A stretch of DNA of 45,100 bases, from IMG/VR virus record IMGVR_UViG_3300043399_000352, positions 1-45,100 of that record; one strand, written 5' to 3'. The DNA is from a virus. The notes beneath the pieces were generated by a model. The model did not search any database, was not told the origin of the DNA, and was given only the letters and a program-made list of their open reading frames with translations. The translations under genes and the position numbers were made by a program. Each line of letters begins with the position of its first letter. The stretch's first letter is position 1. Shown piece by piece: positions 22,052 to 26,460 of this stretch.

Positions 22052-24040
22052 TCACATCACCGCGATCGTGTTTGTTTCGGGGTCTAGCCAGTAGGGGGCG
22101 TCGTCGCCATCGCAAAGCCTGTGCAATGCGCGTCGCGCGTTGCTCTTGTAGTTGCCCTTGGGGTCCTTTTCAACGCCATCACGCTCGCGCATGCGACGCG
22201 CTGCCTCCTCGAGCACCGGCTTGATTTCAATCCCCTCGGTCTGCGCCTGGGCCATCTCCTGCAGCACCTCGTTGACCACCTTTTCGTTTTTGCCCAGCTT
22301 GCGATCGGCCACGCCGCCGACCGGTATCTCGGCCTCGACCACCACGCAGCTGGTGACCGGGTCCAGGTCCTCGTCGACGCCCAGCTGCACCACCTCGAGC
22401 GCAAAGCCCCACTGCAGGCCGTCCTCGCCGTCCTTGTTCTTGGACAGGCGGATTGACCTGAGCTCGCCCTCGCGCAGGATCTCGAGCTCAGCGTCGGCCG
22501 CGGCGCGCAGGCCAGACCAGCCCCTGGCGCCCTTGCTGGCGTCCTTGCCGCTGTGGTGGATGAGCACCACCAGGGCGCCCGTGAGCTCGTGCAGGCGCTT
22601 GCAATGGCCCAAGGCCTTGCCCACGTCCTCGCCGGCGTTCTCGTTGGCCCCTGGCGTGGTCTGGGCGAACGTGTCGACCACGATCACCTCGGCGCCACCG
22701 CTGGCGATGACGCCCGCGGCCAGGTCCTTGGCGTCCTTGAGCTCCATCAGGTTGGGCGCCGCGTTGAGCACGCTCATGGGAACCGTCGACAAGTCGACAC
22801 CCTGGGCCTGGGCGTAGGCCGCCAGGCGCTTGCGAAAGCCCTCGGCGCCCTCGGCTGCGATGTAGGCCACCCTGCCCTGCTTGGTGCGCTTGCCGCGCCA
22901 CGGCTGGCCCCGTGCGATCGCCAGCGCCATGTCGAGCACTGCAAAGGACTTGCCCGAGCCGCTGGCGCCGTAGACCACCGCGAGCCCCGCCTGGGGCAGC
23001 ACGCCCTTGATGATCCAAGGCAGCGCGGTTGCGCTCGAGAACTCGTGCACCGGCTCGAATGTGAAGCGCAGGCCGGCGCTGTCGGCTCGCTCGAGCGCCT
23101 GCTCGACCAGGTCCTCGAACTCATCGGCCGATGCCGGCGCGTTCAGGCTGATGCGTGCGCCGTGATCGTTGGCCATCTTGACCAGCGTGCGGCCGGTGAC
23201 CTGGGCGCCCGAGCCCTTGCCGAAAGAGCGCCAGCGCTCCTCGTTGAACTCGCGGGTCGTGTACTTGGGGCTGGCCTGGCTCCACTCATCCCAGAGCTCG
23301 AAGCCCTCGCCCTGGGTCTCGCAGTGAATGGCCATGCCGACCTGCAGCCAGTCGTCGTAGTGCAGGTCGTGCGGGAGCGCGGCCAGGCACTGCTGTATCT
23401 GCGAGACGGTCAAGCCCGAGGGCTCGGTGTGGGTCGGCGCCTCGGCGTGCTCTGTCCTGGCAAAGCGCTGCGCATGCAGCGTGCGCACGTCGTCGTTGAG
23501 CTGAGCAACCTCGTCGGTGTTGCCCAACAGCTCGGTGAGCTCGAGCGTGTTGCCGGTGAAGGTCACAAAGCCGCGAGAGCTGAAGCACTCCATGCCGTAG
23601 GCGCCGCCGCGCAGGGCTTTGCCGTTGCCGAGATCCCCTTTGAAGAAGAGCCGCACGCCTCGCCCGCTGGGGCTGAACTCGGCATAGGTGTCGACCAGCA
23701 GCTGCTCGACGTCTGGGTGCACGCGGCCGTCGGTGATGCAGTCGTCGAAGTCGAGCGCGCAGATCCCGAACTGGGACAGCGTCGCAAAACCGACACCGTC
23801 GAAACCCCGACGCACAGCGGCAGCCTTGGCGGCGTCGAATGTGACCAGGTTTGCTACGTCTCGAGTTCCGCCTTGTTCACCGTGACGTTTGCCACCGTTG
23901 GCGTAATAGGGAACCTTGCGGGGCTTGCCCCCGCCTGGGTTGTCCTCGAAGCGCCAGATAACCCAGGCCTCGAGATCGCGGATCGCCGCGGGCGCTTCGA
24001 CGTTGCGAAGGTGGGGAGTGATGCGGGCCACGTTACTCAT
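22052..24040 (-). CDS. Primase/RepA-like helicase fusion (662 aa)
   Basis: The N-terminal ~200 residues resemble a primase-polymerase-like domain: [31 protein letters not shown] (acidic pair) and [13 protein letters not shown] PriCT-like helical linker follows. The C-terminal half is a RecA/RepA-type ATPase with Walker A GASGSGKS (about residues 358-365, K364), Walker B EVIVVDTF (~455) and [11 protein letters not shown] (motif 3-like). It should prime and unwind phage DNA. Its ATG overlaps the stop of the alternative-frame reading frame as ATGA. Homologues are common in phages and plasmids. Confidence 0.88.
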
Positions 24041-24981
24041 GCCAACTCCTCAAGGTTGGCAGTCGAGCCATGCACCGATGAACTCGGCCGCGACTTGCGG
24101 GACGATGGCATTGCCGTAGGCGCGCAGACGTCCCACTCGGCCGGGAGACCCATGAGCCAGCGGGAATGCGCCGGGTTCAACTGGCCGCCACTTGCCGTCC
24201 CGGCAAGCCAGCCAGTCAGCATTACTCCAGTGGCCGTTAACCGAGCCGGGCCGCCCAACGTGGATAGAGCCGCCGTGCACAGGTCGTTCCCCCAACCCTT
24301 GCGGGCCGCTTCCGCTTCCGCACCGCTCAGTGTCCTTACCGACTTGTCTCCATCCTTCGCACCTGTTGTCGGCCAGCCCGCTAGGTTCGCTTGCCTCGGC
24401 AACTGGTCGAACCGCTCCGACCCGTCCGCCCTCGGCTTGATGTCGCCGCCCGTGTCCTTCCAGTCGCGCGTCGTCGGTGTGACCCACCCAGTACAGTCGC
24501 TGTCGGATGTGCGGCGCGCCGATGCCCGCAGCGCACAGATCGGCGGCCCCAGCGGCGTAGCCCGCAGCTTCCAGGTCAGCGCGTACAAGGTCGAGCCAAG
24601 CGAGGCCGTCCTTGCTTGCAACCTGCTCGCCAAAGACGACTGGAGGGCGGCACTCTTCGATGAGGTGGTAGAAGGCTGGCCAGAGGTGCCGCTCGTCAGC
24701 AAACCCAGCGCCTTTGCCTGCATCGGAGAAAGGCTGACAAGGGCAGCTACCTGTCCACACTCGTCGGGTGTCAGCCCAGCCAGCAAGGCGGAGAGCTCGG
24801 GACCAGACACCGATGCCCGCGAAAAAATGACACTGGGTGAACTCTCGCAGCTCAATCGGATGGACGTCTTCGATGCTGCGGGTGTCGACGACACCGTCTG
24901 CGATGTGACCCTCGGCGATAAGGTTGCGCAGCCACTGTGCTGCGTAAGGGTCAACCTCGTTGTAGTAAGCGGACATGACAT
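24037..24981 (-). CDS. Overprinted reading frame spanning the whole methyltransferase gene (314 aa, same strand, other frame)
   Basis: Its ATG (24979-24981) lies 5 nt upstream of the methyltransferase ATG. The frame stays open throughout and its TGA overlaps the primase/helicase start as ATGA, as coupled genes do. The product is Ser/Thr/Arg/Ala-rich. It contains [39 protein letters not shown] and [16 protein letters not shown]. From memory these match a family of phage proteins annotated as methyltransferase-associated or hypothetical; the LNPxxxxWLMGxP element also occurs near the end of unrelated phage methyltransferase-type proteins. The frame could open further up at 25062, inside the leader hairpin, but the ATG at 24981 is preferred. 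Whether it is translated is unproven. Confidence 0.5.
24050..24976 (-). CDS. C5-cytosine DNA methyltransferase (308 aa)
   Basis: It transfers a methyl group from SAM to cytosine, probably to shield phage DNA from host restriction. Motif I is [14 protein letters not shown]. Motif IV carries the catalytic cysteine in [26 protein letters not shown] matches motif VI (ENV-like). [10 protein letters not shown] is the motif VIII region. [19 protein letters not shown] is motifs IX-X. It is compact, with a short target-recognition region (~190-240). ATG at 24974-24976; stop 9 nt before the primase start. A second reading frame covers it completely. Target sequence unknown. Confidence 0.93.
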
Positions 24982-25002
24982 GGCGACTTTCAAAAAAGCG
25001 CC

Positions 25003-25088
25003 ACGGGTGAGGGTTGTGAAGTCGCCAAACCGTACCCGCTGTCCACGGGCCACAACCCTCACCCGTAGCGGGACAGTTTTGGTTTGGC
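25003..25088 (-). promoter_or_regulatory. Attenuator-like leader of the methyltransferase
   Basis: In the leftward RNA, a perfect 16-bp hairpin (25066-25051 with 25018-25003) is followed by GGCGC and six U (24997-24992), an intrinsic-terminator layout. A competing 5' hairpin pairs 25088-25081 with 25031-25024 (8 bp) and 25076-25071 with 25044-25039 (6 bp). It encloses the first strand of the terminator stem, so the two folds exclude each other. A -10-like TACAGT at 25101-25096 would start RNA close to 25088. Confidence 0.65.
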
Positions 25089-25093
25089 AGGGG

Positions 25094-25112
25094 TTACTGT
25101 AGCAGACAGTAA
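25094..25112. promoter_or_regulatory. Operator O1 (TTACTGT-N5-ACAGTAA), leftward
   Basis: A perfect 7-bp inverted repeat containing TGTAGC-AGAC-AGTAAA (25098-25113). On the minus strand the GCTACAGT part supplies a TACAGT -10 hexamer. No good -35 is visible. It lies between the 58-aa gene and the methyltransferase leader. Confidence 0.7.
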
Positions 25113-25120
25113 AGCCGTGG

Positions 25121-25297
25121 CTAGACGCGCATGCCGTGCTTGCGCAGCCACACGCTCGAGAAGACGACCTCCCCGCGAGCCCGGGAGTAGGTCGTGTACC
25201 GGCACAGCCACTCGGTGCGCTCGCGGTAGATCAGCACGACGACGTTGCCGCTGGGCAGCATCACGCGCATGCCTGGCTCGAGGAACTCAATCATCAT
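25121..25297 (-). CDS. Small protein (58 aa), unknown
   Basis: Reads [34 protein letters not shown] and onward. The short beta-rich sequence resembles small phage proteins with an SH3-like '[14 protein letters not shown]' strand pair. Start chosen at 25297 (double ATG), because it overlaps the end of the 38-aa gene by 11 nt, in keeping with the overlaps elsewhere; an in-frame ATG at 25321 is further inside that gene. Function unknown. Confidence 0.6.
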
Positions 25298-25403
25298 TGT
25301 CGGTCCATAGCCTGCTGTCATCGGACAGCGACAAGATGCCGCACAGCACGTAGCCGGCGATAAAGCCTATCCAGCCGGCGAGCACCAGCCAGACCCAGCT
25401 CAC
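25287..25403 (-). CDS. Tiny membrane protein (38 aa)
   Basis: GTG start at 25401-25403, overlapping the stop of the upstream regulator as GTGA. One hydrophobic helix fills residues 3-25 (WVWLVLAGWIGFIAGYVLCGIL), followed by an Asp/Ser-rich tail. This would be a single-span inner-membrane peptide. The coupling and clean membrane helix argue for a real gene. Function unknown; superinfection exclusion or immunity roles are possible but not shown. Confidence 0.55.
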   Translation of the reverse strand: MSWVWLVLAGWIGFIAGYVLCGILSLSDDSRLWTDNDD

Positions 25404-25729
25404 AGCGTCAGCTCCAGCTGGCGAGCATCCACGATCGGGAACTCGCTGATCACCGCCTGGCCCTTGAGACAGCGCTGCGCATACTCGCAGTGCAGGCAGG
25501 CCTCGCTCAGGTCGGTGCGGTAGATCTTGGGCAGCCGGCCCTTGCTGGCGCGGTGCATCTCGGCGGTGGCCCGCTCGATTGCACCGGCCCGCTCAGCGCT
25601 GGCCGTGCGGTATCCGCCGGCGTACTGGTACAGCATCCCGCGGGTCGTGCCCACGCGCTCGGCCAGGGTTTCCTGCTCCTCGACCGTAGCCGCAGACATC
25701 CATGCCTTCATCGAAGTGATAGTTTTCAT
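25400..25729 (-). CDS. YdaS/Cro-like HTH regulator (109 aa)
   Basis: Residues ~5-60 form a Cro-superfamily helix-turn-helix (AATVEEQETLAERVGTTRGMLYQYAGGYRTAS), similar to YdaS-type antirepressor/Cro proteins. The C-terminal part has Cys pairs (CLHCEYAQRC) that could bind metal. It is divergent from the CI-like gene at 25797, the classic immunity-switch arrangement. The intervening operator overlaps its -10 (TAAAAT). ATG at 25729; an in-frame ATG at 25711 is an alternative. Confidence 0.82.
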   Translation of the reverse strand: MKTITSMKAWMSAATVEEQETLAERVGTTRGMLYQYAGGYRTASAERAGAIERATAEMHRASKGRLPKIYRTDLSEACLHCEYAQRCLKGQAVISEFPIVDARQLELTL

Positions 25730-25735
25730 GTGGCA

Positions 25736-25764
25736 AATTTTAGCAAACAGTACAGGTCTTGCAG
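25736..25764. promoter_or_regulatory. Divergent control region with operator O2
   Basis: The operator TTTAGC-AAAC-AGTACA lies at 25739-25754. On the minus strand its GCTAAA half runs into AT to make a TAAAAT -10 for the YdaS-like gene, with CTGCAA 17 nt upstream as a weak -35. Rightward, TTGCAG (25759-25764) and TACCCT (25783-25788), 18 nt apart, could drive the CI-like gene with an almost leaderless mRNA. Confidence 0.6.
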
Positions 25765-26430: not shown

Positions 26431-26460
26431 TTGCGCCTGCGTTTTAGCAGGTGCTACAAT
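26431..26460 (+). promoter_or_regulatory. Early promoter with operator O3
   Basis: -35 TTGCGC (26431-26436), 18-nt spacer, -10 TACAAT (26455-26460). The operator TTTAGC-AGGT-GCTACA (26443-26458) lies between the boxes and shares bases with the -10, so binding would block RNA polymerase. Confidence 0.82.

Follow-up and report, generated by a model that had tools for sequence, protein, structure and literature searches.

Phage P4 makes a processed antisense RNA with seqA and seqC targets. The c4 RNA is a leader RNA of phages, complementary to the region where a small ORF starts, and this ORF is coupled to the controlled gene. Amino-acid and riboswitch attenuators consist of chained, mutually exclusive helices that end in a terminator and/or in masking of the Shine-Dalgarno (SD) sequence. 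The c4 antisense RNA corresponds to RF01695, as named in one part of PMC2864571. In the part of PMC4825925 that deals with IsrK, this RNA of prophage Gifsy-1 is described as having its own promoter and terminator, with a readthrough mRNA that takes alternative folds. The same part reports an upstream ORF coupled to the controlled gene, control of anrP/AntQ, and activation in trans by the short RNA. It also likens P4 SeqA/CI to IsrK and describes the P4 replication genes as silenced by premature termination (PMC4825925).

We analysed a leader RNA in a 45,100-nucleotide stretch of a viral record (IMGVR_UViG_3300043399_000352), referred to here as the window. Judged from sequence, this leader is very probably an on/off switch belonging to the replication genes. 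Our preferred reading, held with moderate confidence, is that it acts as a promoter-proximal attenuator which is OFF by default, terminates transcription and masks the start site, and whose ON fold is a pseudoknot. Uncultivated phages in IMG/VR yielded 58 distinct versions of the leader, which normally has a Cro-like gene before it and a primase-helicase gene after it. The conserved architecture, as read from the aligned sequences, is an outer helix A, a pseudoknot B-E, a long hairpin D and a helix F, and A, B, D and F covary. The features of the window are as follows.

25096–25113, minus strand: operator/promoter-like element TTTACTGTCTGCTACAGT; extended −10 TGCTACAGT, with TACAGT at 25101–25096, 7 nt upstream of helix A
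25081–25088, minus strand: 5′ arm of A, GCCAAACC, pairing with 25024–25031; predicted 5′ end of the RNA at or next to 25088
25071–25076, minus strand: 5′ arm of B, CTGTCC, pairing with the loop of hairpin E
25051–25070, minus strand: 5′ arm of the long hairpin D (5′ strand of the terminator); two-sided changes in 17 of 20 pairs
25046–25049, minus strand: 5′ arm of E, CCCG; paired in 41 of 41
25039–25044, minus strand: 3′ arm of B, GGACAG, within the loop of E; from covariation and parse
25035–25038, minus strand: 3′ arm of E, CGGG; paired in 41 of 41
25024–25031, minus strand: 3′ arm of A, GGTTTGGC, common to helix F
25019–25026, minus strand: 5′ arm of F, GGCGACTT; three bases overlap the 3′ arm of A
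24999–25018, minus strand: 3′ arm of D (3′ strand of the terminator)
24992–24997, minus strand: U6 tract
24982–24989, minus strand: 3′ arm of F, AAGTCGCC, overlapping the putative Shine-Dalgarno sequence GAAAG at 24991–24987
24979–24981, minus strand: first AUG after the RNA; in relatives, the ORF beginning here has its stop at the start of the next gene
24050–24976, minus strand: C5 DNA methyltransferase (PF00145, phrog_363), an optional gene between leader and primase
22052–24040, minus strand: primase-helicase (PriCT_2 + AAA_25), the usual downstream gene
25121–25321, minus strand: 66-aa ORF directly upstream of the leader; relatives found by it carried the leader
25400–25729, minus strand: upstream Cro-like gene of 109 aa; a homologue precedes 34 of 44 leaders

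Inspection of the minus strand from 25101 to 24992 found every piece named by an earlier note on this DNA. The 16-bp perfect hairpin followed by six U is there, with arms at 25066–25051 and 25018–25003 and U6 at 24997–24992. Four more pairs, one of them G·U, lengthen the stem to 25070–25051/25018–24999, and a single C separates this 20-bp stem from the U6; a stable hairpin with a near-adjacent U-tract, the hallmark of an intrinsic terminator, is present in the window. The upstream pairing of 8 + 6 bp could also be located, as 25088–25081 with 25031–25024 and 25076–25071 with 25044–25039, and the placement of the RNA start at the upstream hairpin agrees with the position of TACAGT, 7 nt before its first base. 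The letters of an inner ACGGG/CCCGT pairing are present as well, but this pairing was dropped because relatives do not keep it; their CCCG belongs to hairpin E, where it pairs with CGGG in 41 of 41. Folding of 24981–25110 gave −55.2 kcal/mol, whereas the shuffles averaged −41.6 (sd 3.6; z −3.78), and none of 200 dinucleotide shuffles was as low. The leader does look like a two-state, attenuator-like switch, as suggested in the earlier note, but the element runs past the U-run, and its true 3′ end is the start codon at 24981–24979. A covariance model of 41 leaders, run on the window, matched once, at the leader position only.

Relatives were collected by several searches. Among the 80 loci in IMG/VR nearest to the methyltransferase, inspection, which covered 46 of them, found no leader directly upstream except in an identical contig (L004). 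The 66-aa ORF retrieved six loci: an identical contig (L091), one that ends too early (L092), and L093 to L096, which show a clear homologous leader without methyltransferase and have the primase, or a small ORF before the primase, directly behind it. Primase relatives (37 loci) and a degenerate RNA pattern (90 stretches) then yielded 44 long-stem leaders, that is, pattern matches with a stem of at least 10 pairs, after the chance hits L197, L167 and L136 had been dropped by eye. Trimming left 41 distinct leaders in the alignment. The covariance model built from them added the divergent members L106, L244, L231, L259, L250, L247, L246, L253 and L101; the 58 leaders are the distinct cores from 70 model matches, with further matches in duplicate loci left out. 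A model made from the 17 leaders of the other sequence class alone recovers the window leader (63.3 bits, E 1.9e-16). Scanning viral contigs for exact 16-mers gave 7 stretches, which include the identical contig.

Outside these sets, the Cro-like protein, scanned against genome contigs, matched weakly at 2 loci out of 35 candidate stretches, neither with a leader, and had no match in named phages. The stretches fetched for the closest named-phage primases, of Caulobacter phage GB2A (43%) and Curvibacter phage PCA1 (39%), carry no leader, and DNA searches of the phage collection with parts of L096 and L152 gave nothing relevant. Rfam 15 at gathering score returned no match for the window and none for seven leader loci, a result that bears on c4, IsrK, SAM and SAH riboswitches only as far as the library includes them. 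Up to E 10, only chance-level matches (E 0.5–9) were obtained in the window region, and c4 (RF01695) was not among them. Our literature search found no description of this leader RNA; a 2017 survey, said to list 224 candidate RNAs, could contain one.

The alignment of 41 leaders over A, B, D and E has 97.8% of its 1534 cells paired. Two-sided changes occur in 23 of 38 pairs and 266 cells, which are not counts of events because the sequences, all metagenomic, are related; shuffles gave 97.7 such cells (0 of 500 as high) and slid versions 10–34. The earlier note had looked to relatives for covariation, and compensatory changes, far from being missing, are extensive. For helix A (8 bp), 98.3% of the cells in the 7 pairs of helix 1 are paired, with an AU/CG exchange at one pair; two pairs are compensated, one of them at the edge and unpaired in 10 sequences. 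Helix B is paired in 100% of cells with two-sided changes in four of its six pairs, and compensation on both sides is seen in 17 of the 20 pairs of D. The CCCG/CGGG of E is invariant and paired in all 41 aligned leaders. It is altered on both sides in the divergent L234 (CUCUG/CAGAG), L009 (CCGUG/CACGG) and L101 (CUGGG/CCCAG), and the B strands of L009 and L101 differ yet still pair. An alignment-free parse found the B-E pseudoknot in 58 of 58 leaders, with 17 different B strands; this parse picked a pairing other than our reading by eye for L257, L244, L231, L247 and L106. Since 303 of 1160 shuffled controls also pass this loose rule, the parse carries little weight by itself, and the stronger evidence comes from covariation.

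Helix F forms between the ribosome-binding region and the last bases of the A 3′ arm (A′) plus those that follow. In the 41 leaders, 91.9% of its cells are paired and 35 are two-sided (0 of 500 shuffles as high), with 15 A·C cells; most of this covariation reflects a single division between two classes of sequence, with a few additional events. F, or A′ with F, pairs the start region over at least 8 bp in 40 of 58 leaders and is short or failing in the others. Swapping partners between sequences cost a modest amount of energy, from −14.1 to −11.7 kcal/mol for F, −18.2 to −15.2 for A and −12.8 to −11.6 for B. A local hairpin G (GGCG/CGCC) before the AUG was tried and rejected, with 61.7% of cells paired and no two-sided changes.

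Hairpin D, which can reach about 20 bp, sits between B and E; once it pairs, the two partners of B, and likewise those of A, are held at opposite ends of a helix. On this geometric argument, D and A/B should not coexist. A and F directly share bases (a 3-base overlap in the window). The fold competing with D is kept by compensatory changes, as in an attenuator whose two folds exclude each other, here presumably by geometry. The earlier note was thus right about a competition between the terminator and an upstream fold, but the latter is a pseudoknot that D would displace geometrically, and not simply a hairpin holding one strand of the terminator. When the growing transcript of the window was folded, A appeared at 68–83 nt and D dominated from 86 nt. 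The energies, with pseudoknot terms left out, are −14.9 kcal/mol for A+E, −18.6 for A+B and −43.7 for D+E. From the prefix folding and these energies, the default end state is therefore D, and D is so stable that the ON state could work only with assistance or with fast kinetics.

Scoring places a −10-like hexamer 6–9 nt before A in 39 of the 44 leaders. Four of the five exceptions (L196, L183, L152 and L148) show TAAGGT or TAATGT at 6 nt by eye, which leaves L097; no −35 box was identified. The window also contains 7 sites of a TTTAC-N4-TGCTAMAGT element with up to three mismatches, against 1.5 expected. The three best copies lie upstream of the leader (25096–25113, minus strand, 0 mismatches), upstream of the Cro-like gene (25737–25754, minus strand, 2 mismatches) and at the start of ORF 26451 (26443–26460, plus strand, 2 mismatches), and these copies are probably operators of CI/Cro-type proteins. 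The Cro-like family itself has a GRLP..RTD motif after an HTH-like start and a C-terminal C-x2-C-x5-C, whose three cysteines are invariant in 20 sequences.

At the 3′ end of the RNA, the first AUG falls −3 to +5 nt from the end in 53 of 58 leaders, and GAAAG, which we take to suit the 16S 3′ end of betaproteobacteria, is found within 17 nt upstream of the script-assigned AUG in 52 of 58. An ORF of at least 80 codons starts at the stop of the first ORF in 49 of 58, and the first ORF is just 9–24 codons long in 20 of 58. The U-run after D has at least four U in 22 of 41 leaders, three in 11 and at most two in 8; because of these last 8, termination cannot be the sole output. The leaders with a U-run of at most two have F helices of 8–11 bp, and L101 and L253 have U-runs and no F. 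This pattern fits two alternative OFF outputs, the trade-off being weak (Spearman 0.31, p 0.017, relatedness ignored). The earlier note had missed the probable second output, in which the 3′ half of A and F together mask the ribosome-binding site.

A primase homologue lies downstream of 35 of 44 leaders and a Cro-like homologue upstream of 34, with some misses due to contig ends, e.g. downstream in L207, L137 and L145. Leader and primase remain together while other genes come and go. In L196, L191, L183, L157, L152, L148 and L143, the leader stands with a primase only about 31–33% identical and a Cro-like gene was undetected, and their RNA is near-identical to that of L166. The RNA thus behaves as a module, since near-identical copies accompany a distant primase without a detectable Cro-like gene. 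L125 carries the end of a leader and a primase on the plus strand (1–57); on its minus strand (1093–1200) are a second, unlike leader and the beginning of another primase, a layout that suggests a chimeric assembly.

A homologue of the window's methyltransferase follows 3 of 44 leaders, and the covariance model found the RNA at 2 of 79 methyltransferase loci, L009 and L030; in L009 it lies downstream of the methyltransferase gene by which the locus was fetched. A methyltransferase-specific leader is rejected on these counts, and the earlier idea that the leader senses SAM/SAH or the enzyme finds no support. As far as gene order tells, the leader travels with the primase operon and the methyltransferase is next to it only sometimes. 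The window-type enzyme stands behind the leader in the window, L173/L227 and L220. In L097 and L145 the first gene encodes another C5 methyltransferase, and in L104, L110, L234, L009 and L030 one of the N6/N4 type; the seven proteins tested, which gave seven methyltransferase hits, had been chosen for methyltransferase-looking N-termini. DNA methyltransferases of two Pfam families thus recur right behind the leader, as if exchanged there, and by gene content the slot between leader and primase is favoured for them, though most leaders do without.

Within the methyltransferase gene, the +1 frame (24981–24037, minus strand) is nearly stop-free except near its ends across the phage C5 family. In 23 homologues chosen from the 80 methyltransferase loci, the stops per gene eighth number 39, 1, 0, 0, 0, 0, 0 and 17, against 37, 8, 18, 12, 6, 7, 7 and 16 from synonymous shuffles. 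In the window, this frame starts at the AUG right after the leader, ends with a TGA overlapping the ATG of the primase, and matches phrog_31772 (3e-30) and phrog_1008 (4e-25). It looks like a conserved overlapping ORF.

Starting from the computed helices, their covariation and overlap, the conserved position, the −10 element and the AUG placement, we infer an order of folding in the cell together with termination, SD masking, coupling and an ON-stabilising signal or factor. The transcript of the primase operon would begin at helix A, from a promoter probably controlled by CI/Cro-type proteins. The nascent RNA would first fold A, E and B, and the pseudoknot would hold the 5′ strand of D in a loop, which is the ON state. 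Once the 3′ strand of D emerges, the RNA may refold into the far more stable hairpin D, which is the OFF state. D would then be an intrinsic terminator wherever a U-tract follows, and the freed 3′ half of A, with F, would pair the ribosome-binding site of the first downstream ORF. The next gene, usually the primase-helicase, appears to be translationally coupled to this ORF. A signal or factor would stabilise the ON fold.

The same features can be read in other ways. The terminated RNA of about 95 nt may itself be the product, its F bases in the loop of hairpin D pairing with the F 3′ arm of readthrough mRNAs or of mRNAs from a superinfecting phage, so as to silence replication or, like IsrK, to remodel them. 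The leader has all the parts of a small-RNA gene, with its own −10 at a constant distance and a terminator, the region around the start of the next ORF is complementary to F, and IsrK and P4 CI/SeqA, in the part of PMC4825925 that treats them, employ related logic. Pairing of F in cis is nevertheless enough to account for its conservation, some members have a weak F or none, and DNA similarity revealed no second target in the window; we regard a trans-acting product as rather unlikely. With the same modest chance, the leader would represent a new family of phage immunity RNAs, in which a stable leader RNA loop (A′/F) silences the start sites of replication genes in trans. This would amount to RNA-based superinfection immunity alongside a CI-type repressor, with the pseudoknot as an escape route in lytic growth.

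A ligand or protein riboswitch, with the A/B/E pseudoknot as binding site, possibly for SAM/SAH or the methyltransferase, seems improbable to us. Its pseudoknot with an exclusive terminator does give a riboswitch-like layout, and E keeps its CCCG/CGGG unchanged throughout the 41 aligned sequences, but divergent members change the sequence of A, B and E and keep the pairing, so that no conserved binding core is visible. The association with SAM metabolism or methyltransferases typical of SAM/SAH riboswitches is also lacking, the window-type enzyme being behind only 3 of 44 leaders, although several more have some other kind of DNA methyltransferase after them. The position between cro-like and replication genes and the hairpin with U6 would suit a plain tR1-like terminator with incidental upstream pairing. 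That B and F covary, that A and F overlap and that D is kept in leaders without a U-tract already speak against this reading, which we consider very unlikely. Least probable, and only barely credible, is an element acting as DNA, either a replication origin fold or protein-binding inverted repeats; it would suit the nearby replication genes, and single-stranded DNA folds are suggested for the STAXI motif in part of PMC2864571. Departures from Watson-Crick pairing in the inner 15 pairs of D speak against it: in the 41 leaders these are 29 G·U cells vs 2 A·C cells, and such G·U would be A·C on the opposite strand. Selection thus acts on this RNA strand, because G·U far exceed A·C, and the fixed placement between −10 and AUG likewise argues against a DNA element.

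The leaders make up a structured RNA family with good support, absent from Rfam 15, which sits where DNA replication is controlled in a large group of uncultivated phages and has two exclusive folds both recorded in covariation. On the attenuator reading, one switch would join transcription termination and start-site masking, and would offer a directly testable case of RNA control over phage replication beside P4 and IsrK. The seemingly elaborate leader of the methyltransferase would also be explained, as DNA methyltransferases of more than one kind are found in the slot that follows the RNA.

Compared with known systems, the leader resembles amino-acid and riboswitch attenuators in that mutually exclusive helices follow one another and lead to a terminator and/or to SD masking, but it has no internal leader peptide, and no conserved aptamer core was seen. 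Like c4, it is a phage RNA complementary to the start region of a coupled small ORF; unlike c4, neither the window nor the seven leader loci give an Rfam match at gathering score. IsrK and P4 CI appear to be its closest analogues. In contrast to P4 CI, no separate antisense RNA was found by a DNA-similarity search of the window, a search that short complementarities could escape. The B-E pseudoknot is a feature of the leader that is absent from the IsrK model as given in part of PMC4825925. IsrK controls anrP/AntQ whereas the leader precedes a primase and is without a gathering-score match in Rfam. Activation in trans is a feature of IsrK that the leader's sequence would permit, F being complementary to the start region. 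As far as IsrK is portrayed in that part, the two would share a promoter with a terminator, alternative folds, a coupled upstream ORF and control of a prophage gene.
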